This document shows, piece after piece, positions 17,254 to 33,692 of a stretch of DNA of 33,692 nucleotides (its first letter is position 1; the number at the start of each line of letters is the position of its first letter). Source of the DNA: Pseudomonadota bacterium (GTDB lineage: Bacteria; Oederibacteriota; Muellerivitia; Muellerivitales; Muellerivitaceae). The position numbers and the translations under genes were made by a program. Under the pieces are notes generated by a model. It had not been told where the DNA came from. It searched no databases and saw nothing but the letters and a program-made list of their open reading frames with translations. Where the stretch lies: the NCBI GenBank assembly GCA_021324075.1, contig JAJPJW010000020.1, positions 1-33,692 of the forward strand. The letters are read 5' to 3'.

Positions 17254-20200
17254 ATGATTTTTCTTTTTATCGAGATCGATCATCCGGAAGTTTCGGGGAA
17301 GAGGGGCGAACCCGAGGCCGACCATGTCCTGGCCAGCCAGTTTTTCCTCATTGAAGAAATCCTTTTCAGCCACGGCGTCCATTGGATGAAACGGACCCCC
17401 ACCGGGGTCCTGGGGGTTTTTGGGGGCGGCGACGGGCCCGAAAGCGCCCCCTTCTCCCCCGGGCCAACCCCGTCCGTTCCCCAGCCCGTCCCCTCCGGAA
17501 TGGCCCAGGGCCGGCCGGGGGAAGCGATCCTGGCCTTGCAAAAAGAATTCCAGAAACGCCCCTGGGACTCCTTCGGCAAAGCCCGGCTCAAGGCCTCCCT
17601 CCACGCCGGGGAAGCGGAACCGGCGGGCCAGAATTACGTGGGCCCGGAGGTCCACCATGCCCTGAAGGTCCTCACCGCCGCCCGGAGCGGCCAAACGCTC
17701 TTAACCGTGCCCGCGGTGCATTTCATCCCCCTGCCCCCGGGGTCCCGCCTCAAGGACATGGGCAAGCACTTCCTCAAGGACCTCACCGAGCCCCAGACCC
17801 TCTATGCGCTCCTCCATCCAGACCTCGCGGAGGAGGGAAACCAACCGCCCCTCTCCCTGGCCGATTATCCCCAGAATTTTTTCCCCCAGGCCTCGCCCTT
17901 CTTCGGCCGGGAGGAGGAAATAGGCGAAATAACGCACCTCCTGGCCGCGCCCCACAACCGGCTGCTGACCCTGATCGGCCCGGGAGGCTTCGGCAAGACG
18001 CGCCTGGCCTTCCAGTCCTCCGCGGAGGTCGTGGAGAAATTCAGGGACGGGATTTTCATCGTGGCCCTGGCCCCCCTCCTGTCGGACCACCTGCTGGTGG
18101 CCAGCATCGCCAACGCGGTGAAGTTTTTCTTTTACGGCCCGGACGACCCGAAGGCCCAGCTCCTGGCCCACCTGAGGGACAAGCAGTTGCTCCTCGTGAT
18201 GGACAACTTCGAGCACGTCATCGAGGGGGCCGAATTGGTGCTGGAGATCCTTTCCGCCGCCCCGGGCGTGAAGGTCCTGGCCACCTCGCGGGAATCCCTG
18301 GGGATCGGGGGGGAGAAGATCTTCGAGGTGCGCGGGCTCCGCTATCCCCCGGTGGAGGAAGCGGCCCAAATGGAATCCTCCAGCGCGGTGCAGCTTTTCC
18401 TCAAGAGCGCCCGCCGCATCCAGCCTTATTTCACGTTGGCGCCGGGGGACCGGGGGCCCCTCCTGGACATCTGCCGCTACCTGGAAGGCATGCCCCTGGG
18501 GCTGGAGCTTTCAGCCACCTGGGTGGGCACCCTTTCGCTCTCGGAAATCGCCTCGAAGATCGAGTCCAGCCGCGATTTCCTCGCCACCTCCATGCCCCAC
18601 CTGCCGGCCCGGCACCGGTCCGTGCGGGCGGTCTTCGAGTATTCCTGGATCCTGCTCACCGAGGGGCAGAAGAAGGCCCTGAAATCCATCTCGGTCTTCC
18701 GGGGCGGTTTCATGCCCGAGGCCGTGAAGAAGGTGGCCGGGGCGGGGGAGGATCTGCTGGAGAAACTGGCCCAGAAATCCCTGCTGCGCCGCAAGGGCGT
18801 CCGGTGGGAGATCCACGAGCTCCTGAAATACTACGCCAAGGAAAAACTGTTCGACGACCCGGAAGAAAAGGAGAAATCCTTCGACGCCCACAGCCGTTAT
18901 TTCAGCCAATGGATGGCCAAGCGGGAGGCCGACCTGACGGGCCCCCGCCAGCAAAAAGCCCTGGAGGAAATGGTCGAGGAGATCGGCAATATCCGCGAGG
19001 GGTGGCGCCGGGCCCTGGGTAAAAGGATGGTGGAGGAACTGCAAGGCTACCTGGAGGCTTATTTCCTGGTCCTGGAGACCAAGGGGTGGTTCCAGGAAGG
19101 CCGGGAAGCCTTCCGGCAGGCCGCCGAGTCCCTCCGGGAGGTTTTCCCCGAAGGCATCCGCTCCGCTTCCGTTTCGGTGCTGTTGGCCCGGCTCCTTTGC
19201 CGTTGGGCGGATTTCGAGCGCAACCTGGGCCACACCACCCAGGCCGGGGAACTTTTGAAGGAGAGCCTGGCGGATTTTAAATCCGCTTCCGCGATGAGCC
19301 AGGCGGGATATGCCCAGGGAAGCCTGGGAAAGGTCTTCGAAACCCAGGGGGATTACAAAACCGCCAAGACCCTCTTCGCCCAGAGCCTGGCCACCTTCCA
19401 AAGGGCCCGGGACCGGCACGGCTCGGCCTGGGCGCTCAACGAGCTGGGCCATATGGAATCGCTGGCCGGCAACTTCAAGGCGTCCCTGTTGCTCGTGCGC
19501 CGGAGCCTCGCCCATTCGGAAGGCCGGGGTGACCGGCGGTCCGTTGGCCATTCCTACATCTTGATGGGGGACGCCTTTTACGGACAGGGGATGCTGGAGG
19601 AATCCAAAGCCTATTACCAGAAGGGACTGGAGGCCTACCTGGAATCGGGGGACCGGCGGGGCATGAGCTGGGCCTTCATCAACTTGGGCCGGGCGGCCGA
19701 GATGCTGGGCGATTACACCGGCGCGCGCCAGATGTACCGGGAAGGGATGGCCATCGCCAAGGACATGGGGGACCTGAGGGGCCTGGCCTGGGTCGACAAC
19801 CTGCTGGGCTTCACCCTCTGGGCCACGGGGGACTACCCCGAAGCCCAAAGGCATTTCCGGGACGGTCTCGCCCTTTACCGGGAGATCGGCGACCACCGGG
19901 GACAGGCCTGGACGCTGGACCTGATGGCCAACGTGAAGCTGGCCCAAAGGGAACCGGCGGAGGCGGAAGAATGTTACCGGCAGGCCCGTGAATTGATCGT
20001 GAAGGAAGGGATGAACGTCCAGAACAAGGCCTGGGATTCCTTCCACCAGGGGGCCCTTTTAGCCTCCCAGGGATCCCAAAGGGAGGCTTTCCAGAAACTC
20101 AAGGAAGGCAACCGCCTGTTCCATTCCATCCGGGAGGGACTGGGAGAACTGAGCTGCCTCCTCCAATTGGGCGAAGTCAGCCTGACCCTGGGGGATACGG

Positions 20201-20625
20201 ATGCGGCCGAAGATTTTTTCCGGAAGGCCGGGACCATGGCCCTGAAACGCCACCTGCCGCCCTTCCTCTCGGATTTGTTGGTGGGCGTGGCCCAGGTGGT
20301 GAAGGCCCGGGGGGACGAGGGGCAGGCTTTGGCGCTCCTGATGGTGGCCCTCTGCCAGCCCACCTGCCGCCAGCCGACCAAGGACCGCACCCTGGTGCTG
20401 GCCAAGGAACTCAGGGCCCCCTTTTCCCCCGAGGAAGTGGAAGGTTCGGCCTACTGGGCCCGGTCCGTTCGTATCCAGGAAGTGGTGGCCAACTGGCTTT
20501 CATCCCGCTCCAAAAGGGGGATGAAAAAAATCTCCCCCGTATCCTCCCGCAAGCCCCGGCTGGCAGCCCGCCGGCGTTCCCCGAAGAAAAGCCCCAAGGC
20601 CCTTAAGAAAGGCCGGCGGAGGTAG
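17254..20625 (+). CDS. Degenerate class III cyclase domain + NB-ARC-type ATPase + TPR protein
   Basis: A 1,123-residue cytosolic signalling protein. Residues 1-190 align with class III adenylate cyclases of the kind fused to AfsR/LuxR-like ATPases: the start IFLFIEID (for FLFTDIEGS), LHAGEAE, NYVGPEV and LKDMGKHFLKDL are recognisable. The catalytic positions are lost: metal Asp 1 is Glu, Asp 2 of GDG is Thr in TPTG, and the N..R pair is His..Lys. Residues 215-490 are an NB-ARC-type ATPase with Walker A GPGGFGKT (Lys248), Walker B LLLVMDNFEHV (Asp317) and LATSRESLG. A winged-helix-like region (465-535) and about nine 40-residue TPRs (640-1070) follow. Instead of a LuxR helix-turn-helix it ends in a 40-residue Lys/Arg/Ser/Pro tail. 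The ATG at 17254 has GGAAAGGA about ten bases upstream. The ATPase looks active and the cyclase dead; the output is unknown. Confidence 0.85.
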   Translation: MIFLFIEIDHPEVSGKRGEPEADHVLASQFFLIEEILFSHGVHWMKRTPTGVLGVFGGGDGPESAPFSPGPTPSVPQPVPSGMAQGRPGEAILALQKEFQKRPWDSFGKARLKASLHAGEAEPAGQNYVGPEVHHALKVLTAARSGQTLLTVPAVHFIPLPPGSRLKDMGKHFLKDLTEPQTLYALLHPDLAEEGNQPPLSLADYPQNFFPQASPFFGREEEIGEITHLLAAPHNRLLTLIGPGGFGKTRLAFQSSAEVVEKFRDGIFIVALAPLLSDHLLVASIANAVKFFFYGPDDPKAQLLAHLRDKQLLLVMDNFEHVIEGAELVLEILSAAPGVKVLATSRESLGIGGEKIFEVRGLRYPPVEEAAQMESSSAVQLFLKSARRIQPYFTLAPGDRGPLLDICRYLEGMPLGLELSATWVGTLSLSEIASKIESSRDFLATSMPHLPARHRSVRAVFEYSWILLTEGQKKALKSISVFRGGFMPEAVKKVAGAGEDLLEKLAQKSLLRRKGVRWEIHELLKYYAKEKLFDDPEEKEKSFDAHSRYFSQWMAKREADLTGPRQQKALEEMVEEIGNIREGWRRALGKRMVEELQGYLEAYFLVLETKGWFQEGREAFRQAAESLREVFPEGIRSASVSVLLARLLCRWADFERNLGHTTQAGELLKESLADFKSASAMSQAGYAQGSLGKVFETQGDYKTAKTLFAQSLATFQRARDRHGSAWALNELGHMESLAGNFKASLLLVRRSLAHSEGRGDRRSVGHSYILMGDAFYGQGMLEESKAYYQKGLEAYLESGDRRGMSWAFINLGRAAEMLGDYTGARQMYREGMAIAKDMGDLRGLAWVDNLLGFTLWATGDYPEAQRHFRDGLALYREIGDHRGQAWTLDLMANVKLAQREPAEAEECYRQARELIVKEGMNVQNKAWDSFHQGALLASQGSQREAFQKLKEGNRLFHSIREGLGELSCLLQLGEVSLTLGDTDAAEDFFRKAGTMALKRHLPPFLSDLLVGVAQVVKARGDEGQALALLMVALCQPTCRQPTKDRTLVLAKELRAPFSPEEVEGSAYWARSVRIQEVVANWLSSRSKRGMKKISPVSSRKPRLAARRRSPKKSPKALKKGRRR

Positions 20626-20709: not shown

Positions 20710-20737
20710 GGAATAAAACCGCCGGTTAAGCCACTGG
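20710..20737 (+). promoter_or_regulatory. Putative ECF-type promoter of the sigma-factor gene
   Basis: GGAATAAA (20710-20717), 14 bases, then CACTGG (20732-20737). It matches the three other sites in the window (22222, 25348, 30814) except for G in place of A at the fifth base of the downstream box. It lies about 60 bases before the sigma gene start, which implies autoregulation. An 8-bp inverted repeat, ACCCAGCC/GGCTGGGT (20697-20704/20763-20770), brackets the site. Confidence 0.55.
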
Positions 20738-20797: not shown

Positions 20798-21370
20798 TTG
20801 GAAGACCGTGAATTGGTGGAAAAACTTTTGGCCAAGGAAGAGGCGGCCTACCGGTATTTTTACGGCACCTACCGGGACAAAATCTACAAGGCCAGCGTCT
20901 ATCTCCTGGGATACCAGGACCCGGACGCCGAGGACGTAACCCAGGAAGTCTTCCTGGCGGCCTTGAAACAGCTTCCCCAGTTTGAATTCCGCTCCAGCCT
21001 GTACCACTGGCTTTACCGGATCTGCATGTACCTTTGTTACGAAAGGATCCGCAAGCGAAGGCGCCAGGTCGCCAGCCTGGAAGACGAGTTGGAAACGGCC
21101 GCCGCCCCCCTGGTCTTCGGCCAGGACCAGGCCCTGGACGACCAGGAGAGGCAAAAGGCCCTGGAAACCATCGAGGCGCAGCGCCAGTTGATGGGGGACC
21201 CCTGCCGGGGCCTGCTGGACCTGAGGGAAAAGCAACAGAAGAGCTACGCCCAGATCGCCGACGCCCTCAAGGTTCCCATCGGTACGGTGATGTCGAGGCT
21301 GGCGAGGTGCAAGGAAGCATTGAAGGCCCTGGTTTTAAAGGCCTTAAAGGAAAAGCCGCATGGCGGATGA
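20798..21370 (+). CDS. ECF-family RNA polymerase sigma factor
   Basis: A 190-residue extracytoplasmic-function sigma factor. Region 2 covers about residues 8-90: DAEDVTQEVFL (43-53) is the region 2.2 core-binding helix and LYHWLYRICMYLCYERIRKR (69-88) spans 2.3-2.4 for -10 melting and recognition. Region 4 covers about 130-182, with the helix-turn-helix SYAQIADALKVPIGTVMSRL (149-168) for -35 binding. The start is TTG at 20798, with GGGGAG six bases upstream and the rest of the protein beginning at the normal place (EDRELVEKLL). The candidate anti-sigma gene overlaps its end by 11 bases. Its likely targets are the GGAATAAA-N13/14-CACTAG sites, including one upstream of itself. Confidence 0.93.
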   Translation: MEDRELVEKLLAKEEAAYRYFYGTYRDKIYKASVYLLGYQDPDAEDVTQEVFLAALKQLPQFEFRSSLYHWLYRICMYLCYERIRKRRRQVASLEDELETAAAPLVFGQDQALDDQERQKALETIEAQRQLMGDPCRGLLDLREKQQKSYAQIADALKVPIGTVMSRLARCKEALKALVLKALKEKPHGG

Positions 21371-22127
21371 CCTCATCATCAAATTTTTCAGGGAAGACCT
21401 GACCGAGGCGGAGGAAACGGCCCTTTTGGAAAGGCTGTCGTCCTCCGTGGAGGATGCTTTGCGCTTCGGCCAGCACGCCGAGGCTTCCTACCTCCATTAC
21501 GGGCTCCCCGAACCGAAATGGCGGGGCGGCCCGCCTCCCCCCGGATTCCCCTCCCATTCCGGTTCCAAGCTGTGGCTTTGGTTGACGCTGGCCTTCCTGG
21601 CCGGGCTGTCCTCCTGGAGTGCCTGGACCTTTTGGAAGGGAAATGAAAACAAGCCTTTGACCGCCGTTTCGAGGACCGCACCCGGGGTTTCCCCTTCCCT
21701 TCCGGCGGTGAAACAACGGGGTTCCATCCTTTCGGGCGAAAAGGCTGTCATCCCCGACCACTTACCCGAGAGCCCGGCGCAAAACCGGGACTCCTTATCG
21801 ACCGCCCAACCTGCGGCCTCCAGGACCCTGGCCCAGGACAACTTGCCCGCTTCCACACCCATTCCGGCCGCAGTTCCGGGCCGATCCCATACCAACCTGG
21901 AGGTGCAGGTGAAGCGGGCCAAAGCGGGACCTGTGACCGTGAGGGTGGTGGGGCCGGACGGGGCCCAGGCCGTGATGCTTTACCAGGGGATGCTGCAACC
22001 CGGCAATTGGGCTTTCGACTGGAACGGCCGCCTGGCCAATGGGAGGGCCCCGCCGGCGGGAACCTATCAAATCCAGGTGGTTTCAGGGGCCGTCACCCTC
22101 AACAAGCCGGTGGTCCTTCGAAAATAG
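21360..22127 (+). CDS. Candidate anti-sigma factor with one membrane segment and FlgD-like periplasmic domain
   Basis: A 255-residue membrane protein. Residues 1-50 (FFREDLTEAEETALLERLSS) resemble the short helical anti-sigma domain of non-zinc anti-sigma factors; no HxxxCxxC is present. Residues 71-91 form a single membrane helix (LWLWLTLAFLAGLSSWSAWT). A Pro/Ser/Thr-rich spacer (95-180) leads to a C-terminal FlgD Ig-like domain (about 181-255) with WAFDWNGRLANGRAPPAGTY, so the topology is cytoplasmic N-terminus and periplasmic C-terminus. It starts at ATG 21360 behind AAGGA and overlaps the sigma gene by 11 bases, the usual arrangement of a sigma/anti-sigma pair. The assignment rests on position, topology and the N-terminal helix pattern; binding to the sigma factor is inferred. 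Confidence 0.7.
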   Translation: MADDLIIKFFREDLTEAEETALLERLSSSVEDALRFGQHAEASYLHYGLPEPKWRGGPPPPGFPSHSGSKLWLWLTLAFLAGLSSWSAWTFWKGNENKPLTAVSRTAPGVSPSLPAVKQRGSILSGEKAVIPDHLPESPAQNRDSLSTAQPAASRTLAQDNLPASTPIPAAVPGRSHTNLEVQVKRAKAGPVTVRVVGPDGAQAVMLYQGMLQPGNWAFDWNGRLANGRAPPAGTYQIQVVSGAVTLNKPVVLRK

Positions 22128-22221: not shown

Positions 22222-22250
22222 GGAATAAAGGGGCCCCTTCCTACACTAGT
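22222..22250 (+). promoter_or_regulatory. Putative ECF-type promoter before the PorV-like gene
   Basis: GGAATAAA (22222-22229), 14 bases, CACTAGT (22244-22250), with TTCCTA just before the downstream box. The predicted transcript would begin near 22257 and carry a leader of about 105 bases, in which GGCTCAAA (22260-22267) can pair with TTTGAGCC (22318-22325). Confidence 0.6.
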
Positions 22251-22362
22251 TGTGTGGAAGGCTCAAATGGCCCCTTGATCAGCCTTGCGGTTGAAAAGGG
22301 ACTTTTTTTATGACTTTTTTGAGCCTCACTATTTTCCGGAAGTGTATAGGCGGGCAGTTGTA

Positions 22363-23976
22363 ATGCCCCGCACTCCTATCGCCCATTCGGAGCCTTCCAG
22401 TTTTTTCCGGCTCCTGTTTCCGGTCCTTTCCGCCTGGTTGTTCCTTGTTCCGGCCCTTTCCCTGGGCGGCCAAACCCTTTATTCCGCTTCCAGCCAAACC
22501 AACCCCCTGGACAACATCCCCCAAGCCGCCCGTTCGGCCGGCATGGGTTCGGCTTTTACCGCCGTGGCCGACGATGCCTCGGCCCTTTTGTCCAACCCGG
22601 CGGGATTGGGATTCCTCAACCGAGGCCAATTGTCCCTGAACAGCGATTTATGGCTGGTGGGAACTTTCCAGGAAACGGCCCTGGCCGGGTTCCCGGCGGG
22701 TGAAGCGGGAGGCTTCGGCCTGGCGGCCCATTACCTGGATTACGGTTCCATGGAAGGGAGGGACAATTCGGGATCCCTCACGTCCAGCTACAGCGCCAAC
22801 CGCCTGGGACTGCAGGCGGGTTGGGGATATGCCTTCCTGAAAGACTGGTCGCTGGGTGTGGGGTTCGGCGGCTCCCAAACCACTTTGGCCGGAACGGATT
22901 ACACCCACGTGACTTCCAAGCTGGGGTTGCTATGGCAAAATGGCCAGGGACTCCGGCTGGGGGCTTCCTACGTCAACGCCGGGTGGATTTCCCCCGGGGG
23001 AGCAAGTGAAGACGCGGTGAACCTGGGGGCTTCTTATGACTGGGCCTTGGACCGGGCCGACCGGCTATTGGTGGCGGTAGGGGGCTCCTTGGAACCCAAT
23101 GCCGTCAGCTATCTCCAGGCGGGAGCCGAATTTTCCCTCCAGGGGCAGGTTTTCCTGCGCGTGGGATACCAGGTTCCTCTTTCGGACGAAGCCCTCGGGG
23201 GTTTGACGGACCTGACGGCGGGAGCCGGGTTCCATCTTTCCGACTTCAGCCTGGACTATGCCTTTCTCCCCTATGGGGATTTGGGTGTCGCCCACCGGGT
23301 CAGCATCGGATATTTTTTCGGAAACCCGAAGCAAGAAAAAGCGGCTTACGGGTCCCCCGCTGCTTTCGGGTCTGCGAAACCGCCCGATGTAACCTCAAAA
23401 GAAAACACCGCAACTCATCCCGGGTCCTTGAACCCCGCCCTTGGAATGCAGGGGACGGGCCTTCCGCCCGCGACGTCCAGTGTAAAGACCGGCAGCGGGC
23501 TGACAAACACGACCGGCGTCGGTTCCAATTTCCCCCCCTTGCCTTCGGACAGCCCCATCCCTTCCTCTTCCTCGAACCCGGGAGCGGCCGCCACCGCGGG
23601 GTCGGCAACAACCGTTTCCCAGCCGCAAACCGCCACGGCCGCCATGGGGCCTGCAACAGCGCCTTCCCAGCCGCAAACGGCGGACTCCAACAGTCCCAAA
23701 GATTCCCTGGTCGTCCAGTTCGACCTTCCGGATAATTCCTCCCCCAGCGGGGCTGAGTTGGAAAAAGAAGGGAAATATAAAGAGGCGATGAGCGCCTACC
23801 TGGACGCGGTCAAGCAAAACCCCCAGGACACAGCCTCCTGGTGGGCCATGGGAAACCTGTACCGGAAGGGCGGCCAAAAAACCTACGCCATCCAATGCTT
23901 TGAACAGGTTCTCAAGCTCCAGCCGTCCAACCAGAAATTATCGGATTGGCTTCAAAACTACAAATTACAACCTTAG
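22363..23976 (+). CDS. PorV/PorQ-like outer-membrane beta-barrel fused to C-terminal TPR
   Basis: A 537-residue exported protein. A signal peptide covers about residues 1-36. The N-terminal motif GMGSAFTAVADDAS...NPAGLG (60-83) is the signature of the PorV/PorQ family (FadL-like barrels). About 300 residues of alternating, aromatic-ended beta strands follow, to a strand VSIGYFFG. Residues 330-460 are a Ser/Pro/Thr/Ala-rich linker. Residues 465-537 (GKYKEAMSAYLDAVKQNPQD..., CFEQVLKLQPSNQ) are two TPRs. In type IX secretion PorV carries C-terminal-domain cargo at the outer membrane; here the next genes encode proteins with such C-termini. The start is uncertain: ATG 22363 gives a clean signal peptide, while GTG 22339 and TTG 22285 are in frame. 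The TPR fusion is unusual. Confidence 0.75.
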   Translation: MPRTPIAHSEPSSFFRLLFPVLSAWLFLVPALSLGGQTLYSASSQTNPLDNIPQAARSAGMGSAFTAVADDASALLSNPAGLGFLNRGQLSLNSDLWLVGTFQETALAGFPAGEAGGFGLAAHYLDYGSMEGRDNSGSLTSSYSANRLGLQAGWGYAFLKDWSLGVGFGGSQTTLAGTDYTHVTSKLGLLWQNGQGLRLGASYVNAGWISPGGASEDAVNLGASYDWALDRADRLLVAVGGSLEPNAVSYLQAGAEFSLQGQVFLRVGYQVPLSDEALGGLTDLTAGAGFHLSDFSLDYAFLPYGDLGVAHRVSIGYFFGNPKQEKAAYGSPAAFGSAKPPDVTSKENTATHPGSLNPALGMQGTGLPPATSSVKTGSGLTNTTGVGSNFPPLPSDSPIPSSSSNPGAAATAGSATTVSQPQTATAAMGPATAPSQPQTADSNSPKDSLVVQFDLPDNSSPSGAELEKEGKYKEAMSAYLDAVKQNPQDTASWWAMGNLYRKGGQKTYAIQCFEQVLKLQPSNQKLSDWLQNYKLQP

Positions 23977-23987
23977 GGAACCGGACC

Positions 23988-25193
23988 ATGGGAATGCGGC
24001 ATAGGGTTAAAAAATGGATCGTTGGGATTCCGCTGGTATGCCTGGGATTGCACGGGACCGGCGAAAAGGCCCTTGCCCAGACCCCCATTTGCTGCCAGGG
24101 GGTCACTTTCTTCAATGGATTTAATAATCCCGCCGGCTTGGCGATCCAATACGGACTTGGATTGATTTATGTTGGCGACCGGGCCAACCACCAGGTTCAA
24201 GTCCTGAATATGCAGGGGATGTCGGTCACGGCCTTTTCCGCAAGTCCACCGATGGATTCGGTCGATGTTTCGGTCGATACGGCCGGCAATATTTTTGTGG
24301 CGGATTACAATGGCGGCCTGATTCGGGAGTTTAATTCAAGCTACAACGAAATTCCGGTTTTGTTCACCGGTGGCCCTCCCAGCTTGCCAAGGGGTCTCTG
24401 GGTGGACGGCCCGCCCGCAACCGAATCGCTCTATATTTCATACCAGGACAGTTCCGTGATCCGTTTTGACCGTGGCAGCACGGTTTTTTCCGCGGCGGTG
24501 ACCTATCCAGGTTTGACGGGAGTGCCGGACCAACTGGTGAAACAAGGTAATTACCTTTATGTCGCGGACACGACCTCCAACCAAATTGCGAAATTCGACG
24601 TTTCCGGCGGAGCGCCTGTTACGGTTTATTCGATCACCGGCCCCTATGGAATAAGGACGGACCTGGCGGGGAATTTTTTCGTCGTCGGGGGCAACGTGGT
24701 CTTCCGGTATGGCGATTTGGCAGCCGCGCCGGTCACCGACTGTCTCATCCCGAATTTTCCATGGTCGGCGGTGGTCAACCCAGCGGGTGAAGTCTTCGTT
24801 AGTGAGTACGATGGCACCGGTGTTACGGTTATCCAAAGCTGCGTGACCGAACCTTCCTTGACCCCAACGCCCACCTTCACCCCTACGCCCACGCCCACCT
24901 CGACCCCTCCGGCCTCTGTAGGGCAGTTTTTCCTCTACCCTTCACCTGCCACCGGAACAACGGCTACCGCGGCCTATTACATGGCCCAACCGGGCCAGAT
25001 GGAGTTGAGGGTTTGGAACGAGAAGGCCGAGATCGTGACGCGGGTCACGGATTCGAAGCCGGCCGGTTCCCAGGTGACGCCCTTTTCCATCGCGGGCTTC
25101 GGGTCGGGGATCTATTTTTACTCCCTGACCCTCACTTATTCATCGGGTGCGGTGGAGAAATTCGGCCCCAAGAAGTTCGCTATCCTGCATTAA
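23988..25193 (+). CDS. Secreted beta-propeller protein with FlgD/sorting-like C-terminus
   Basis: A 401-residue exported protein, 11 bases after the PorV-like gene and surely co-transcribed. A signal peptide covers about 1-33 (ending KALAQ). Residues 35-290 form an NHL/SMP-30-like propeller: PAGLAIQYGLGLIYVGDRA, VSVDTAGNIFVADYNGGLI, YLYVADTTSNQIAKFDV. The domain opens with TPICCQG, a CCQ start also found in both propellers of the large subtilase. A TPTPTFTPTPTPTSTPP linker (about 287-306) leads to a 95-residue C-terminal domain, YPSPATGTT...SGIYFYSLTL, ending FAILH, which resembles FlgD Ig-like and type IX sorting domains. The ATG at 23988 has AGGGAA eight bases upstream. Probably surface-exposed; ligand unknown. 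Confidence 0.75.
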   Translation: MGMRHRVKKWIVGIPLVCLGLHGTGEKALAQTPICCQGVTFFNGFNNPAGLAIQYGLGLIYVGDRANHQVQVLNMQGMSVTAFSASPPMDSVDVSVDTAGNIFVADYNGGLIREFNSSYNEIPVLFTGGPPSLPRGLWVDGPPATESLYISYQDSSVIRFDRGSTVFSAAVTYPGLTGVPDQLVKQGNYLYVADTTSNQIAKFDVSGGAPVTVYSITGPYGIRTDLAGNFFVVGGNVVFRYGDLAAAPVTDCLIPNFPWSAVVNPAGEVFVSEYDGTGVTVIQSCVTEPSLTPTPTFTPTPTPTSTPPASVGQFFLYPSPATGTTATAAYYMAQPGQMELRVWNEKAEIVTRVTDSKPAGSQVTPFSIAGFGSGIYFYSLTLTYSSGAVEKFGPKKFAILH

Positions 25194-25347: not shown

Positions 25348-25374
25348 GGAATAAAGACGACATTCCTCCACTAG
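25348..25374 (+). promoter_or_regulatory. Putative ECF-type promoter of the subtilase gene
   Basis: GGAATAAA (25348-25355), 13 bases ending TTCCTC, CACTAG (25369-25374). Transcription would begin near 25380. That rules out the ATG at 25379 as a start and supports the ATG at 25430. Confidence 0.6.
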
Positions 25375-25429
25375 GGACATGACGAACCTATTTAAAGATG
25401 GACCTATTTTTTTATTTGAGGGTATTTCC

Positions 25430-28400
25430 ATGGAAATCATCACGCCCGATCCGTTAAAGCAGAAATTCCATTTCAGCCATGGCTTCCCATTACTTTTTTG
25501 GGCCTGGGCCATTGGAATAGTTGTTTTCCTGTCATTTTCCGCAGCGCACGCCGTCCCCACTAAAACACCCACCCCCACCAAGACCAGGACGCCCACTTCC
25601 ACTTTCAGTCCGACGGCGTCATCGACCGCAACCAATTCCATGACCCCGAGCGCCACCAATACTCCTACCATGACCCCAACCGCCACCGTTACGAGTACGC
25701 CAACCGACACGGCTACTTCCACGGCCACCGTCATGGCGGCCTTTCCCACCGATCTTCCAACCTACGTGCCAAGCGAAATTCTCGTCCAATTACAGCAAAA
25801 CATCGATATTCCAACGGCATTGACGGTGCTTTCCATCTATGGTCAGGCCTCCACTGTTTATGCCGGCGACAATAATTGGGTCCAGGTCGAACTCAACCCG
25901 AATATCAAGGTGGAAGACGCCGTAACCTTAACCCAGAATCCCGATTGCGCCCCTTTCGTGGTATCCGCCCAACCCAATTATTATTACTACGCACATGGTT
26001 GCCCGGCTCCAACCTCCACCAGCGATCCTTATTACACAACCGGAACCTATGCCTTGTCCTGTGGTGGCAATATGACCGATCCTGCTTGGCCGCTAACGAT
26101 GATTGGCGCCCCTTGTGCCTGGAATGTTCTTTCCTCCAATCTTGCCTGCCCTAACTCTAATCCGGTCATCGTGGCGGTTATTGATACGGGTGTTGCATCG
26201 GATCACACAACGACCAACCATCCGGACCTTCCTTCCTCCATTTTTGTCCCTGGAATCCACTATTGGACCGCTGGAACAGTATTGAACTCGGATACCAATA
26301 CCTTCGACGATTATGGACACGGGACCCATGTGACCGGCATCATCGCCGCCCAATGGAACAATGCCGGGGGAACCAATCCTTGCGGGACCAACACGCCTCC
26401 CGGCCCCTTTAACGGCGGCATGGCCGGAGTGGCGGGCTATCCGGGACTTGTCGAAATCATGCCGGTGAGAGTCATGGAAAAAACCTTGGTGACGGGGACG
26501 GGTGGCAGTTATTACGTTGCTTCCGGCTCTACCGCCAGTATTGTGGCAGGCATCAATTGGGCCGTTGCCAATGGAGCGAAAGTTCTGAACCTTTCACTGG
26601 GCGCTAAGCCGTCAGTGATTCCCTATGGAGACATGGTTTGGGAAAAGAGCGCCGTTCAAGCCGCGGTGAATGCGGGTTGTGTGGTGGTCGCTTCGGCGGG
26701 TAATGATAGCACGGCCGCAAGTTTGCAGCCCGTCGATTATCCGGCGGCTTTTACAAACTATGGCCTGACGGCTCCCGGTGTGATTGCCGTCGGCGCGGTA
26801 GACCCGAATTCAAACCGGGCGCCATATTCCAATGGAGGAGGTGGCTTGAGTTTGATGGCGCCGGGTGGATATGGAGTGGCGGGGTTCAACTCTTCCTTGA
26901 ATGTTTTCAGCTGTATTTCCAATTGTCCGGTAGTGGCAACCGTGGGCCTCCCTTTCGCCGCGGCTTTCGACCCCTGCGATAATAACTACGGAACGGATGC
27001 CGGCACTTCCATGGCCGCTCCCTATGTTTCAGGCGCCGCGGCGATGATGCTGGCCTTGAATCCCGCTTTACCGAACTACCAGATTAAAACCATACTGCAA
27101 AACACCGCGACGGATCTTTACACCACCGGTTGGGATACCAAGAGCGGTTACGGTCTTTTAAATCTTTGCGCGGCTTTAACTGCCGCAAAAAACGCAGCAC
27201 CGTCCCCCACCTTCACGCCCCAAGCGACATATACGCCCACGTTTACGCCGACAATTCCCGTCACTCCCACCTTTACTCCCATCCCCAATTTTACCCCGAT
27301 TTTTACCCCGGATCCGATTGGTTGCACCACCAAAGGCCGGGATTTCTGGGTGGCTTTTCCCAGTAGCTCCGTGAGTACCAGCACAATATTTGAAAAAATG
27401 CTGGTCTATGTATCCTGCGCCACGAATGCAACGGGAACTGTTTCTGTTCCGGGGTTGGGGCCTTCCTACAATTACCCCTTTTCTATCCCCGCTGGTGGTG
27501 GGATCGCAACCGTCCAAGTTTCCCTGATCGCCATGCTGACCCAGTCTGCGAGCGGCCCGGGACAATCCCTTGAACATAAAGGGGTCCACGTGGTCGCGGA
27601 TCATGATGTGGCAGTTTCGGGATTGAACGATATCGAGTTTTCTTCGGATGCCTATCTTGGTTTGCCGACGAGTATTTTAGGGACGAACTATATTGTTGCG
27701 ACGTGGGAAAATTATTACAACCAAACCTACAGTCCTTCCGAAATCGCCGTCGTTGGAACCCAACCCGGCACAACGGTGACTATCGTGCCGTCCGTTTCCT
27801 TCACCGGTCATCCGGCGGGTGTCCCTTATTCATTTAATTTAAACCAAGGAGATACTTATCAACTGGATGTTTACGGTGATTCATTGGATTTAACCGGCAC
27901 TTCGGTAAGCTCGAGCGATCCAACCAAACCTATAGCCGTATTTTCCGGACATTTTGAAGCTTTTATCCCGAACACCAATATCTATGCCGGCAATTATATT
28001 TTTGAAGAAATGCTTCCGACGGGAAATTGGGGAAAGAGCTTTGCTACAGTGCCCTTCAAGAGCCGTTTGGACGGCGACTTTTTCAAAATTGTCGCTTCGC
28101 AAAATGGGACTAATGTCAACATCAATGGCGGATTGGTTGCGAGCCTCAACCAAGGGCAATTTTATCAAACGCTGCTTACCAGCCCGGCCGACATTGAAGC
28201 GAACAATCCTGTGGCCGTCATGCAGTTTTCGCAGGGAAATGGAGTGGATCGTCAGCCGCCCATAAACGGAAATGATTGGACCGGGGATCCAAGCATGGTG
28301 ACGATTCCTTCGGTTAACCAGTGGCTTTCCAACTATATCGTTGAGTCCGGGGATGTTAATTACGGGTTGATGAATAACTTCTTTAACCTCGTTGTGCCAA

Positions 28401-30772
28401 ATTCCCTTGTGGCTACACCGCCTGGAGCTCCAACGGGTTCTTCCTCGGTTGTCATGGATTCCGCTTATCTTCCGGCTTCCGATTTTAATCCCGATTTGAG
28501 CATGCCCGGTTATTCTTACGCCCAGATAGGCGTCACCCGGGGCAAGCATTCTTTCAGCGCGCCTCAACCCTTTGGGTTAATTGTGTATGGTTTCGCTCCG
28601 GCGGATGCGTACAGTTACCCTGGTGGCATGAATCTTTGCGCCCCTCCTCCCACCCCCACTTTCACCCCCACCTTCACCTTCACGCCACCTCCCACACCCA
28701 CTCCCACACCCGATTGCTGCCAGGCGCCTCAAAGCATTTTGGCGGGAATTAATCCAATGACTGGCGTGAGCTATCAAATGCAGTATTCGGTGGTGATGGA
28801 CAAGCTCAACAATGCCATTTACGCCATGGATCCAGTGGAGTCCCAAATCGTCAAGTTTAGCATTCCGGCGGGGACCCCTGAGGGAACCATTCAGCCGGTG
28901 GGGACGGCGTTTAGCGGCCTGGCTTGTTTGGCCATGGGACCGAACGGTTTCCTCTACGTGGCGGAGGGCACTGGCACCATCCTCAAAGTGGATCCCCAAG
29001 GAATCCAGACCACCGTGACCGTCGAAAGCGGTGTGGGCCAGTTACGGGGAATTACCGTTGACCCAACCAATAGCGATATCTATGTGACACTGCAAGGAGG
29101 TGCGGTCAAGGTATTTCCCTATGTTTCCGGAAGCTATTCAACGACACCCATCACCGTGGGAACGGTCGCGACCAGCACCCCGACGGGCATTGTGGTGCTC
29201 AACAACGCGGTCTACGTGACGGACGGTTCGGGGGCGGTCATCCGCTTCCCGGAAACCGGGAGCCACACCTACGGGGCCGGCACGTCCTTTATCAGCAGCA
29301 ATCTGGTCACTCCCTTCATGATGACCACGGATGGAGCCAACCTCTACATCGCCTCGTCAGGCGACAACAGCTATGTGATCGCCAACGGGTCCACAGGAGC
29401 CCTGTTCACTAAATGTCCCGTCCCAATATCAGGTTTCGGGATCGCGGTGGATCCAATCACGGGGGAGGTCTATGTCCTAGCTGCAAACGTCATTTACAAA
29501 TATGCACACTGCGGCAGTGTCATTGTTCCAACGCCCACGCCTACCTTTACGCCCACTCCTACACCCGATTGCTGCCAGGTGGTCCAGACGATCACGCCGA
29601 TTAAGCCGAGTTACCATTTGGATTATTCGATGGTGATGGACAAACCTAACAACGACATCTATGTCATGGATCCGGTAGATTCCATCGTTTTCAAGTACAA
29701 CATCCCGTCCGGAACTTCGGCGGGAACCATTCAGCCGGTGGGGACGGCGTTTAGCGGCCTGGCTTGTTTGGCCATGGGACCGGACGGGTTCCTCTACGTG
29801 GCAGAAGGCAATGGCACCATCCTCAAAGTGGATCCCCAAGGAATCCAGACCACCGTGACCATCGAAAGTGGTGTGGGCCAGTTACGGGGAATTACCCTGG
29901 ATCCAAGCAACAGCGATATCTATGTGACACTGCAAGGAGGGGCGGTGGAAGTATTCCCCTATGTTTCAGGGAGCTACTCAACGACTCCCATAACCGTGGG
30001 AACGGTCACAACCGGCACGCCGACAGGCATTGTAGTGCTCAACAACGCGGTTTATGTAGCGGATGGTTCGGGGGCAATCATCCAATTCCCTGAGACGGGA
30101 AGCCACACTTATGGGACTGGGATTCCTTTCATTACAGGCTCAGTGGTGACGCCCTTCATGATGGCCACGGACGGGGCCAACCTCTATATCGCCTCATCGG
30201 GGAGCAACAGCTTCGTGGTGGCCAATGCCACTTCGGGACAGAATCTGAAGACTTGTTCGGTTCCGACTTCGGCTTTTGGGATCGCCGTCGACCCCATTAC
30301 AGGGGAAACTTACCTTTTAGCTTCGGATATTATTTACAAGTTTCCCCACTGCTCCAATGTCCCCTTGCCGGGGGGCGGTGGCGTAAAGCGTCCCGCCAAT
30401 CTTAGTGGAGTTGAGGGATCGGCCCATCTTACTCCGACACCGACTGCTACGCCGACGTCCACGCCCTCCGCAACGCCCACGGCGGCTTGGTTCACCCTGG
30501 CGGCCCCCAACGTTTCCCGGAATGAGGAACCGATCAAGTTTTATGTGAATCTGGATGAGGCGGGGAAGATCAGCATGCAACTCTTTTCCCTCTCCGGGGA
30601 ACAGATTTTCGAAGAGTCCTTCCAAGGGGACAGGGGAGTGAATAGCCTTTCGTGGAACCTTGAAAACAACTCGGGCGGACAAGTGGCCAGCGGGCTTTAC
30701 ATTTATGTCCTGACGACCGGGGATGGGGCTTCTAAAAGAAGCCAAAGAGGCAAAGTGGTGGTTGTACATTAA
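25430..30772 (+). CDS. Giant surface subtilase: S8 peptidase, IgGFc-binding domain, two propellers, FlgD-like C-terminus
   Basis: A 1,780-residue exported protein. Signal peptide about 1-41; TPT/TST linker 42-104; I9-like propeptide with PSEILVQLQ (about 105-190). The subtilisin domain has Asp252 (VIDTGV), His297 (GHGTHVTG), oxyanion Asn425 (SAGNDS) and Ser527 (GTSMAAPYVSGAA), so it should be active. A second linker precedes an IgGFc-binding-protein-like domain (about 631-1070: GRDFWVAFP, LTGTSV..DPTKPIAVFSGH, VMQFSQGNGVD). Two related propellers follow (1093-1363 and 1379-1645), each opening DCCQ. A last linker leads to a FlgD/sorting-like domain (1687-1780, SLSWNLENNSGGQVASGLYI) ending KVVVVH. 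The ATG at 25430 has GAGGG eight bases upstream and fits the promoter. Likely a surface-anchored or secreted protease with adhesive modules. Confidence 0.88.
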   Translation: MEIITPDPLKQKFHFSHGFPLLFWAWAIGIVVFLSFSAAHAVPTKTPTPTKTRTPTSTFSPTASSTATNSMTPSATNTPTMTPTATVTSTPTDTATSTATVMAAFPTDLPTYVPSEILVQLQQNIDIPTALTVLSIYGQASTVYAGDNNWVQVELNPNIKVEDAVTLTQNPDCAPFVVSAQPNYYYYAHGCPAPTSTSDPYYTTGTYALSCGGNMTDPAWPLTMIGAPCAWNVLSSNLACPNSNPVIVAVIDTGVASDHTTTNHPDLPSSIFVPGIHYWTAGTVLNSDTNTFDDYGHGTHVTGIIAAQWNNAGGTNPCGTNTPPGPFNGGMAGVAGYPGLVEIMPVRVMEKTLVTGTGGSYYVASGSTASIVAGINWAVANGAKVLNLSLGAKPSVIPYGDMVWEKSAVQAAVNAGCVVVASAGNDSTAASLQPVDYPAAFTNYGLTAPGVIAVGAVDPNSNRAPYSNGGGGLSLMAPGGYGVAGFNSSLNVFSCISNCPVVATVGLPFAAAFDPCDNNYGTDAGTSMAAPYVSGAAAMMLALNPALPNYQIKTILQNTATDLYTTGWDTKSGYGLLNLCAALTAAKNAAPSPTFTPQATYTPTFTPTIPVTPTFTPIPNFTPIFTPDPIGCTTKGRDFWVAFPSSSVSTSTIFEKMLVYVSCATNATGTVSVPGLGPSYNYPFSIPAGGGIATVQVSLIAMLTQSASGPGQSLEHKGVHVVADHDVAVSGLNDIEFSSDAYLGLPTSILGTNYIVATWENYYNQTYSPSEIAVVGTQPGTTVTIVPSVSFTGHPAGVPYSFNLNQGDTYQLDVYGDSLDLTGTSVSSSDPTKPIAVFSGHFEAFIPNTNIYAGNYIFEEMLPTGNWGKSFATVPFKSRLDGDFFKIVASQNGTNVNINGGLVASLNQGQFYQTLLTSPADIEANNPVAVMQFSQGNGVDRQPPINGNDWTGDPSMVTIPSVNQWLSNYIVESGDVNYGLMNNFFNLVVPNSLVATPPGAPTGSSSVVMDSAYLPASDFNPDLSMPGYSYAQIGVTRGKHSFSAPQPFGLIVYGFAPADAYSYPGGMNLCAPPPTPTFTPTFTFTPPPTPTPTPDCCQAPQSILAGINPMTGVSYQMQYSVVMDKLNNAIYAMDPVESQIVKFSIPAGTPEGTIQPVGTAFSGLACLAMGPNGFLYVAEGTGTILKVDPQGIQTTVTVESGVGQLRGITVDPTNSDIYVTLQGGAVKVFPYVSGSYSTTPITVGTVATSTPTGIVVLNNAVYVTDGSGAVIRFPETGSHTYGAGTSFISSNLVTPFMMTTDGANLYIASSGDNSYVIANGSTGALFTKCPVPISGFGIAVDPITGEVYVLAANVIYKYAHCGSVIVPTPTPTFTPTPTPDCCQVVQTITPIKPSYHLDYSMVMDKPNNDIYVMDPVDSIVFKYNIPSGTSAGTIQPVGTAFSGLACLAMGPDGFLYVAEGNGTILKVDPQGIQTTVTIESGVGQLRGITLDPSNSDIYVTLQGGAVEVFPYVSGSYSTTPITVGTVTTGTPTGIVVLNNAVYVADGSGAIIQFPETGSHTYGTGIPFITGSVVTPFMMATDGANLYIASSGSNSFVVANATSGQNLKTCSVPTSAFGIAVDPITGETYLLASDIIYKFPHCSNVPLPGGGGVKRPANLSGVEGSAHLTPTPTATPTSTPSATPTAAWFTLAAPNVSRNEEPIKFYVNLDEAGKISMQLFSLSGEQIFEESFQGDRGVNSLSWNLENNSGGQVASGLYIYVLTTGDGASKRSQRGKVVVVH
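28711..30360 (+). repeat. In-frame tandem duplication of a propeller module
   Basis: Copy 1 (28711-29520) and copy 2 (29566-30360) encode propellers about three quarters identical over most of their length. The offset is 855 bases at the DCCQ start and exactly 840 bases from GGAACCATTCAGCCGG (28882 and 29722) onward, so a small in-frame indel lies between. DNA identity is uneven: nearly perfect at 28882-29100 against 29722-29940 and lower at both ends, which suggests recent gene conversion inside an older duplication. Confidence 0.85.
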
Positions 30773-30813: not shown

Positions 30814-30841
30814 GGAATAAACCCCGACTTTCCCCACTAGT
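30814..30841 (+). promoter_or_regulatory. Putative ECF-type promoter of the NHL-repeat gene
   Basis: GGAATAAA (30814-30821), 13 bases ending TTTCCC, CACTAGT (30835-30841). It lies about 57 bases before the TTG start at 30898. Confidence 0.6.
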
Positions 30842-30897: not shown

Positions 30898-33692
30898 TTG
30901 AAACCGAAAATCCGCCTATTTGACGGTTTACCTATCCTTGACCGAGGGCCCCGGTCTTTTTGCAGGGCTGCCCTATGGGTCTTTTTCGCCCTTTCGCCCG
31001 CCCTTTCCCAAGCCCAGGCAGTTCGGGGTTTAGCCGGCGATTATTGGGCCGACATCGTACTGGGCCAGCCGAATTTCGGGGGCCTGAGCCTCAACGAAAC
31101 CACTTCCTCCAGCATCCTGCTTCCCAATGGGGTGGCGGCCGATCCCAACCCGTCGAACGTTCCCGGCCGCAACACGGTTTTCTTCTGGGATTCGGGCAGC
31201 AGCCGCATATTGGGTTTCAGCGATTCCAGCGTGCTTTCCCCCAACCAAGCCGCCAGCCAAGGGGGCTTTTCGGCCAATATCGTGATCGGCCAGACCAATT
31301 TCAGCAGTTGCGGCTGCAACGGCGACAACAACAACGCCAATTGGCCCAGCTATACCCCCCCCACCGGCAAAACACTTTGCGGCATGTGGCAGCGGCAGGG
31401 ATCCATTTTGGAAGGCGGATCGGGCTCCAATATGGCGGTGGACCCCGCAACGGGCGACCTCTACGTCCCCGATATTTTCAACAACCGTGTTTTAAGGTTT
31501 TCCGCCGCGAACCTCGCCAATAACCCGCTGGGGCCCTCCGCGGACACTATTTGGGGCCAGCCCGATTCGGGCAGCTTCCTCGCCAACCAGGGCCTGGACG
31601 CCCCCAACAATATCACCTTGCTTTTCGGGGGTACGCCGGCGCTGTCGCAAATAAGCGCGGTTTCGGACGCCCCCCGGGGTTCGGCCTATGGGGGAGTGGG
31701 CATCGACAGCAACGGCAACCTTTGGGTGGCGGATACGGGCAACAACCGCGTCGTCCGCTTTCCGGCGAATCCCCCGCACAGCCTCCCCCAATCCGCCGCC
31801 GACCTGGTCCTGGGACAAGCCAACTTCAATTCCGGTGCCGGCAACGCCAATATGATCGCGCCCAAAGGCGTCCGGGTGGATGGCGCCGGGAACGTCTATG
31901 TCATCGACGGCGGCGGTTCGGCCGGGCGGGTTTTGATCTTCAGGGCGTCCTCCTTGGCTGGCCAGACGGCCGTACCGGCGGCCGACGGCGTCTATACCAC
32001 GGGGATCGACGGTCCCACCGGAATCGACATGGACAATTCTGGGAATGTTTGGGTGACGAATATCCACAATCCCGCAACCGCCGACACCTCGGGAGTGGGC
32101 AACGTGGTGTTGTACCAGCCCGATTTCAGCCAGCCGACCCCGACCCTCAACCCCATCAAGGTCCTGCTCCAGGACCAACTGCCGCCTACGAACCCGACCA
32201 CCTCCGGGGGCTCGGGGCCCGATTTCCTATTCCCCACCGCGACAAGTTTCCAGTCCTCCTGGTCGATCAATGGGGTCGGGGCGGTGGCGCAGGATGGACA
32301 GGGGAATGTTTACGTCACCGGCAAGGGCGCCAGCCAGAACGCCTTCCGGTTCAAGGGCCCCATTCCTTTCCCGACCACCGGGACGGCCTATTCGGCGGAC
32401 GTGGAGATCTTCAAGCAGGTCGCGTCCTCCATCTTCAACCAAATCGGGTTCAACGGGTTCAACGTGGTTTACGGGGTGGCGGTGGGACAGGACAACCCCA
32501 CGCCCCAGTTGGTTGCGGCCGACAGCTACCGGCTGGACTACTGGAACCTCCCCCCGGGCGGACTCGTACCCGGCCAAACGACCCTCAAGAACAACCAGCT
32601 GCCGAGCGGCTATGTGGGGGTCGACAGCACCAGCGTGACCCAGCCGGGGCAGAACACCTACACCCGCATCCGCGTGGACCACTCGGACAACAGCTCCACG
32701 GGCCCCCAGCACCTTTGGGCCATCCTCAACGAGGGGGGCGCGGAGGTTTACAACCTCCCCCTGACGCCCTTCGCCAGTTACAACAACATCGTCAACACCA
32801 ACATCCCGGTCCTGGGCTCGACCTCCACACTGGTGGATTGGTCCGGGGTGGGGGGCCTGAGCGGCTTGAACGACCTAATGCCTTGTTCCAGCGTTTCAAA
32901 GCCCTATGCGGCGGGCCCGGTTTCCTACCTTTGGGTGGCCGACAACTTCCACTCGCGGGTTTTCCGGATAAGGAACCCCCTGGCCGATCCCAACCAGCCG
33001 GCCCGGGCGGTGGACCTGATGATCGGCCAGACGACCGCCTCCAACGGCACCTGCGGCGATTTCGGCACTTGGAACTGGCCCGACTGCAACGGGTCCGTAC
33101 CGGCCAACCAATACACGCTCAACTGGCCGGGGTCCCTGACCCTGGACCACGCGGGGAACCTCTACATTTGCGACTTCTCACTGGAGACGGCGGGGAACTG
33201 GCGGCTGGTCGAATATGACGAATGGGAAATCGCCCAGGCGACCCAAAAATCCATCCGGACGGGCCAGATCCAATACCTCGGGGATTCCACCCAATATCCC
33301 GGGGCGACCCATATTTACGACCGGCACGGGCAGTTCACGGGCCAGAACCAGTGCGACGACGTCCCCGCCAATAACCTCATCGCCACCCTCTGCCAACCCC
33401 TCCAGGCGGCCTTCCCCTCGGATGACCGGGCCATGGTGGTGGCGGGCTTCGGGAAATTCGCCCAGGTGATCCCCAACCCCCAAGGCAACTATGACCCTAC
33501 TAATCCCGTGATGCCCTGGAACCACCTGAACGATTTTTATTCCAACCTTTATTCGGCCACCTTCGACCAGCAGGACAACCTCTATACCGTGGACAGCAAC
33601 CGGGCGCGCCTGTTGGTTTACTACAATCCCGTCCCCACCTCCAACGCCACGCCCTATCCCACCCCCTCCGTCACCCCCACGCCGCCGCCGGG
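30898..33692 (+). CDS. Secreted NHL-repeat protein, C-terminus beyond window
   Basis: At least 931 residues, open to the right edge. I start it at TTG 30898, which has AGGA seven bases upstream (30887-30890) and is the first start after an in-frame stop at 30880; it gives a signal peptide of about 41 residues ending PALSQAQA. The body is a series of NHL-type blades: MAVDPATGDLYVPDIFNNRV, GIDSNGNLWVADTGNNRVVR, VDGAGNVYVIDGGGSAGRV, SLTLDHAGNLYICDF, interleaved with DIVLGQPNF, NIVIGQTNF, DLVLGQANF and DLMIGQT strings typical of large secreted NHL proteins. At the right edge a TPYPTPSVTPTPPP linker begins, so a C-terminal sorting-like domain probably follows. It probably folds as propellers at the cell surface; ligand unknown. 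Confidence 0.8.
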   Translation, partial: MKPKIRLFDGLPILDRGPRSFCRAALWVFFALSPALSQAQAVRGLAGDYWADIVLGQPNFGGLSLNETTSSSILLPNGVAADPNPSNVPGRNTVFFWDSGSSRILGFSDSSVLSPNQAASQGGFSANIVIGQTNFSSCGCNGDNNNANWPSYTPPTGKTLCGMWQRQGSILEGGSGSNMAVDPATGDLYVPDIFNNRVLRFSAANLANNPLGPSADTIWGQPDSGSFLANQGLDAPNNITLLFGGTPALSQISAVSDAPRGSAYGGVGIDSNGNLWVADTGNNRVVRFPANPPHSLPQSAADLVLGQANFNSGAGNANMIAPKGVRVDGAGNVYVIDGGGSAGRVLIFRASSLAGQTAVPAADGVYTTGIDGPTGIDMDNSGNVWVTNIHNPATADTSGVGNVVLYQPDFSQPTPTLNPIKVLLQDQLPPTNPTTSGGSGPDFLFPTATSFQSSWSINGVGAVAQDGQGNVYVTGKGASQNAFRFKGPIPFPTTGTAYSADVEIFKQVASSIFNQIGFNGFNVVYGVAVGQDNPTPQLVAADSYRLDYWNLPPGGLVPGQTTLKNNQLPSGYVGVDSTSVTQPGQNTYTRIRVDHSDNSSTGPQHLWAILNEGGAEVYNLPLTPFASYNNIVNTNIPVLGSTSTLVDWSGVGGLSGLNDLMPCSSVSKPYAAGPVSYLWVADNFHSRVFRIRNPLADPNQPARAVDLMIGQTTASNGTCGDFGTWNWPDCNGSVPANQYTLNWPGSLTLDHAGNLYICDFSLETAGNWRLVEYDEWEIAQATQKSIRTGQIQYLGDSTQYPGATHIYDRHGQFTGQNQCDDVPANNLIATLCQPLQAAFPSDDRAMVVAGFGKFAQVIPNPQGNYDPTNPVMPWNHLNDFYSNLYSATFDQQDNLYTVDSNRARLLVYYNPVPTSNATPYPTPSVTPTPPP

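Follow-up and report, generated by a model that had tools for sequence, protein, structure and literature searches.

What is sensed by a membrane protein whose gene overlaps that of an ECF sigma factor, and whose predicted exported end resembles a domain carried by secreted proteins? The question is raised by a gene pair in a 33,692-nucleotide stretch of DNA (the window), contig C10 in a draft genome of 3.57 Mb from the little-known phylum FCPU426, to which the relatives considered here also belong. Families of this phylum are labelled f1, f3 and so on, and loci, genomes and contigs carry L-, G- and C-numbers, respectively. The features of the window are listed in Table 1.

Table 1. Position and description of the gene pair, its protein domains, the promoter-like motifs and the adjoining module.
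Feature	Position	Strand	Description
ECF sigma factor	20798..21370	+	190 aa, TTG start; Sigma70_r2 44 bits, sigma70-ECF superfamily model 73 bits
Predicted membrane anti-sigma factor	21360..22127	+	255 aa; 24 homologues, 23 beside a sigma gene
N-terminal cytoplasmic anti-sigma domain (predicted)	21360..21524	+	aa 1-55, helical, without zinc motif; conserved block DLxxKFFxxDLTEAEExAL...AExxYxxYGLPEP (alignment)
Membrane helix	21570..21635	+	about aa 71-92; hydrophobic stretch in every family member; helical in the predicted model
Periplasmic linker (predicted), variable, Pro/Ala/Ser-rich	21636..21884	+	aa 93-175; length varies, sequence unconserved (family alignment)
FlgD Ig-like sensor domain (putative), extreme C-terminus	21885..22124	+	aa 176-255, all-beta; FlgD_ig in 23/23; FlgD structures at E 1.6e-9 and fold match
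Promoter-like motif, sigma gene	20710..20736	+	GGAATAAAACCGCCGGTTAAGCCACTG, one base off the exact pattern
Promoter-like motif, PorV gene	22222..22248	+	exact pattern
Promoter-like motif, large cargo gene	25348..25373	+	exact pattern
Promoter-like motif, next cargo gene	30814..30839	+	exact pattern
PorV/PorQ-family outer-membrane barrel with C-terminal TPR	22285..23976	+	PorV_fam 106.8 bits, cut-off 90
Companion: NHL repeats and type IX sorting-type C-terminus	23946..25193	+	NHL 53.6 bits; Por_Secre_tail 19.9 and TIGR04183 19.4 bits, both below cut-off
Large cargo: subtilase, IgGFc-binding-like and NHL parts, sorting-type C-terminus	25379..30772	+	translation probably begins further downstream than the listed ATG
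Next cargo: Pro/Thr-linker surface protein	30898..33690	+	continues past the window end

The sigma gene and its overlapping partner

The 255-aa open reading frame starts within the final codons of the sigma gene, and the two genes overlap by 11 nt. Its product can be assigned a membrane anti-sigma topology, with the N-terminus presumably cytoplasmic, a single helix and an exported C-terminus; a signal peptide was looked for and none was found. The initial annotation had described the product of the overlapping gene as having a helical domain in the cytoplasm, a single membrane helix and a FlgD Ig-like domain in the periplasm, and this layout, with its predicted topology, was confirmed from sequence and alignment. 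Across 24 homologues (23 of them complete) from seven genomes of family f1, both ends of the protein were conserved and the linker between them was not. The isolated N-terminal domain gave no confident match to any Pfam family, and the HX3CX2C zinc motif (ZAS/zf-HC2) was absent from the aligned window-type proteins. A FecR-type N-terminus (DUF4880) was considered and rejected, with one of 23 members matching at E 0.12 and no match for the isolated domain. RsgI_N had no Pfam match in the window protein or in the 23 complete family members, and the partner sigma factor is of the ECF type, not SigI. Just upstream of the sigma gene, positions 17254-20625 encode a 1123-aa STAND-type regulator with NB-ARC/AAA-like ATPase and TPR parts, which no motif links to the module.

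An ECF sigma gene lay directly upstream in 23 of the 24 homologues, mostly with an overlap of 4-11 nt. The exception (L009, 5126-5884 of G000:C140) is an orphan without a sigma gene, located approximately 95 bp downstream of an autotransporter-like barrel gene. Some genomes carry several paralogous pairs, with 5 counted in G000 and at least 7 in G003. A search with the sigma factor as query gave, as its top 24 places, the 23 known pairs and one that was cut off by a contig end. Sigma orthologues lacking the neighbour, which the initial annotation had named as evidence against the pairing, were thus not seen among the 24 closest homologues, but a sigma homologue without it was found further away, in another family (L260:3916-4515 in G012:C9, 41% identity, no adjoining anti-sigma gene), and the pairing holds among close orthologues only. 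More distant sigma genes in FCPU426 were paired with other anti-sigma proteins.

Two further kinds of N-terminus in the same layout were revealed when only the sensor domain served as query. The second f1 type (MKFTPETLLQIYLDGS..., L140-L145) was encoded downstream of a sigma gene in all seven cases (7/7). The zinc type, with the HX3CX2C motif, was present in families f3, f7, f8, f9, f11 and f13 at 19 distinct loci, 18 of which had a sigma gene and 12 a PorV gene. Here, zf-HC2 exceeded the Pfam cut-off in L153 and L157 and FlgD_ig did so in all five members scanned, while matches to NCBI anti-sigma models were below cut-off. The most persuasive argument for an anti-sigma role of the window protein is the occurrence of a canonical zinc anti-sigma domain in the same layout elsewhere in the phylum. 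Together with the sigma gene directly upstream in nearly all homologues, it strongly supports the anti-sigma candidate put forward initially. We infer that the window protein is very likely an anti-sigma factor, which would bind the sigma factor encoded in overlap with it.

In a search of 289 genomes, seven candidates were scored per genome; a control with the zinc domain was therefore run for absence outside the phylum. This control covered 37 genomes from other phyla in which FlgD_ig or PorV is abundant. None of the 45 zinc anti-sigma ORFs, from 50 loci of which 49 had a sigma gene, ended in a FlgD/CTD domain. The literature searched contained no anti-sigma factor of such a layout either, in agreement with the initial annotation, to which no described one was known.

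The secretion module and its promoter motif

The genes downstream of the pair encode components reminiscent of type IX secretion (Table 1). A PorV-family gene was present in the fetched flank, within a few kb of the anti-sigma homologue, in 22 of 24 loci, with at most about 25 PorV matches in the whole 3.57 Mb of the genome. A companion with a sorting-type CTD stood beside PorV in 20 of the 24 modules. The distances of the sigma factor, both anti-sigma ends, PorV and the companion CTD were correlated (Mantel r 0.70-0.83, p 0.0002), indicating that the parts of the module are inherited together, a pattern that functional coupling and mere linkage would produce alike. At four loci the companions are tiny (approximately 110-140 aa; L048:4144-4500, L049:8216-8626, L053:3791-4213 and L089:1659-2141), consisting almost entirely of a signal peptide and the sorting-type CTD, and are always located beside PorV; they are candidate reporter proteins, comparable to PorA of Porphyromonas gingivalis. 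The large cargo protein of the window has two highly similar NHL-type repeat regions besides its subtilase and IgGFc-binding-like domains.

The FCPU426 genomes encode SprA-like proteins, many PorV-family proteins and many CTD cargo proteins. An SprA-like translocon protein was detected in 14 of 15 genomes, above the cut-off in two of them. The PorU sortase was not found in FCPU426 genomes; among the matches listed, the CTD part of the model alone was aligned. With SprA, PorV and CTD cargo present but PorU not found, the pathway is described here as type IX-like and not as the full known type IX system.

The exact promoter pattern was defined as GGAATAA-N13-17-CACTA, with the reversed pattern and shuffles as controls. 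The window contained three exact copies, against 0.04 expected. In the whole 3.57-Mb genome there were seven exact copies and no copies of the reversed pattern, and all seven were located at these modules: three in the window, one before the sigma gene on C24, one before the sigma gene on C123 and two on C67. The C67 copies precede a lipoprotein-like gene, next to a companion and a PorV fragment. C67 is plausibly the continuation, or missing end, of the C24 module; a sequence overlap between the two contigs was looked for and none was found. Within the family, GGAATA(A)-N-CACT(A) precedes nearly all sigma genes, with a spacer of 15-17 after GGAATA, and further copies stand before some unrelated genes as well as before genes for CTD cargo and for Pro/Thr-linker lipoproteins. 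The module loci (338 kb) contained 37 motif sites versus 3.4 in shuffles. In the f1 genomes with pairs, 37 copies were counted versus 8 reversed controls, and other genomes had no such excess.

The C-terminal domain and the signal it may read

The C-terminal domain was assigned to the FlgD Ig-like fold from profiles and models. FlgD_ig (PF13860) matched all 23 complete homologues, at best with 4e-13, the window copy scoring 21 bits, below the 27-bit cut-off. A profile of the sensor family matched the solved FlgD structures in the PDB (E value in Table 1); HLA matches in the same search are generic Ig-fold noise. AlphaFold modelled the whole protein poorly from two sequences (pLDDT 49) and the sensor domain alone modestly (pLDDT 60). 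The best fold matches of this low-confidence sensor model were FlgD, every one with an E value above 0.01. The type IX sorting models TIGR04183 and Por_Secre_tail (PF18962) did not match the window anti-sigma at E up to 1.

The exported proteins had been annotated as ending in FlgD-like domains. This is true of the broad domain family, but the cargo ends in the window are of the type IX sorting type rather than FlgD (20.2 and 19.4 bits against TIGR04183, whose cut-off is 23; 13.2 bits or no match against FlgD_ig). Cargo CTDs scored below the cut-offs of the curated sorting models in the window and above them in L157, L151 and L145. In profile-profile comparison, the window-clade sensor matched the CTD of the large cargo with a probability of 90% (E 1.5e-6) and those of the small companions with 14%. 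Pairwise sensor-cargo scores in this clade barely exceeded those of shuffled sequence. Family f1 alone allowed a fair comparison of cognate pairs, the broader comparison including loci picked by sensor similarity, and the f1 sensors showed no preference for their own cargo over the cargo of other modules (p about 0.35). The sensors of the window clade were always closest to one another. Zinc-type sensors had sub-cut-off matches to TIGR04183/PF18962, and at zinc-type loci the sensor and the neighbouring cargo both exceeded the FlgD_ig cut-off, the pair in L157 being 41% identical. The resemblance between sensor and cargo C-termini noted initially therefore stands at the level of the fold here, and of one domain family in some zinc-type clades, but the sensor is not a copy of its own cargo. 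Mimicry of the cognate cargo was rejected since own cargo was no closer than that of other modules, and a recent domain swap from cargo into sensor since the sampled sensors matched sensors best.

We consider it an even call that the system is a secretion-state-sensing ECF switch of a type IX-like module, with a membrane-bound anti-sigma factor carrying a FlgD/CTD-like periplasmic domain. The N-terminal helical domain would hold the ECF sigma factor, a product of the same transcript, at the inner membrane, and the single helix and long linker would give the FlgD/type IX CTD-like domain a periplasmic position. There, it would report the state of the module, i.e., of PorV, the CTD companion and the large CTD cargo. 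By swapping its partner or being cut off, it would free the sigma factor, which would activate the genes for itself, PorV and the cargo via the GGAATAA-N-CACTA promoters. The link with secretion is drawn because PorV and CTD proteins adjoin the pair under a common promoter motif and because zinc-type sensors match the domain family of the neighbouring cargo, which suggests that the sensor domain of the anti-sigma factor may serve the cell as a gauge of its secretion. That the ligand belongs to the secretion pathway, be it PorV, its TPR or the companion CTD, and does not come from outside is our guess, as is the direction of the signal. A wider version is offered tentatively and is more doubtful: throughout the phylum, ECF anti-sigma factors of one class may read type IX-type secretion directly, each PorV/cargo module having its own switch and a sorting-signal-like domain sampling PorV or the translocon.

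Alternatively, the FlgD-like domain might detect a signal unrelated to secretion, such as a polymer, a surface or envelope stress, the module being a mere output, as with RsgI and its carbohydrate-binding modules. The FlgD_ig domain is of a general Ig-like kind, the presence of several paralogous pairs in a genome would fit several outside signals, as in the RsgI set (PMC4711584), and the sensors have no similarity preference for cognate cargo. This explanation is nonetheless less likely: the sensor would be periplasmic and could reach the surface only if the linker spans the envelope, the genes nearby encode secretion parts and not enzymes for one substrate, and the zinc-type relatives employ the cargo's own domain family.

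In a stricter form of what the initial annotation proposed, the C-termini of cargo still awaiting export would vie with the anti-sigma domain for a single site, e.g., on PorV, so that a backlog shifts sigma activity up or down. Sensor and cargo ends belong to a common superfamily by profile-profile comparison, and PorV of P. gingivalis binds CTDs (PMC7712824). The zinc-type loci, with sensor and neighbouring cargo of one domain family, fit such competition, but the window clade does not: its sensor is no nearer to the cargo of its own module than to that of other modules, lacks TIGR04183 and Por_Secre_tail matches and is always most like other sensors, which makes strict competition unlikely. 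Even less probable is a purely structural FlgD-like domain (e.g., an oligomer-forming or cell-wall-anchoring one) with the sigma factor freed by general proteolysis, since the domain, albeit of a common fold and behind an unconserved linker, is retained at the extreme C-terminus across three N-terminal anti-sigma types in one phylum and is absent from the 45 zinc anti-sigma ORFs examined in other phyla.

Comparison with known systems

Zinc-binding (ZAS, zf-HC2) ECF anti-sigma factors are similar in that the relatives in f3, f7-f9, f11 and f13 carry such a domain before the membrane helix, whereas the window protein lacks the zinc motif and the 45 zinc ORFs of the control in other phyla lack the sensor end. 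In the control of sigma-E by DegS/RseA in Escherichia coli, periplasmic C-termini of waiting exported proteins are the signal, which is read by a protease. The signal proposed here would likewise come from C-termini of exported proteins in the periplasm, but in DegS/RseA a protease reads the peptide and none such is linked to the window module.

The secretion-state-sensing switch proposed here also resembles the RsgI system of Clostridium thermocellum, with its several paralogous pairs, single membrane helix, exported sensor and autoregulated promoters (PMC4711584, PMC12203970). An RsgI sensor may have the same kind of domain as the exported proteins of its regulon (PMC4711584), a further likeness, and RsgI proteins can be released by stepwise proteolysis (PMC12203970). 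Differences are that SigI is not an ECF factor, that the system is Gram-positive with polysaccharide-binding sensors, that the RsgI_N/autocleaving domain is not seen in the window system and that RsgI has no linked secretion helper.

How type IX secretion is sensed is an open question even in P. gingivalis, where PorA, a protein with a CTD, lies upstream of SigP, an ECF factor, by an unknown route and CTDs bind PorV (PMC7712824). The PorA-PorXY-SigP system shares with the window system an ECF factor, a CTD-bearing protein as input and the involvement of PorV, but it uses a two-component system and has no known anti-sigma factor (PMC7712824), whereas in the window system it is the anti-sigma factor that bears the CTD-like domain. 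With a sorting-signal-like domain placed there, beside PorV and cargo, phylum-wide and behind three different putative sigma-holding domains, the question becomes testable with small soluble parts.
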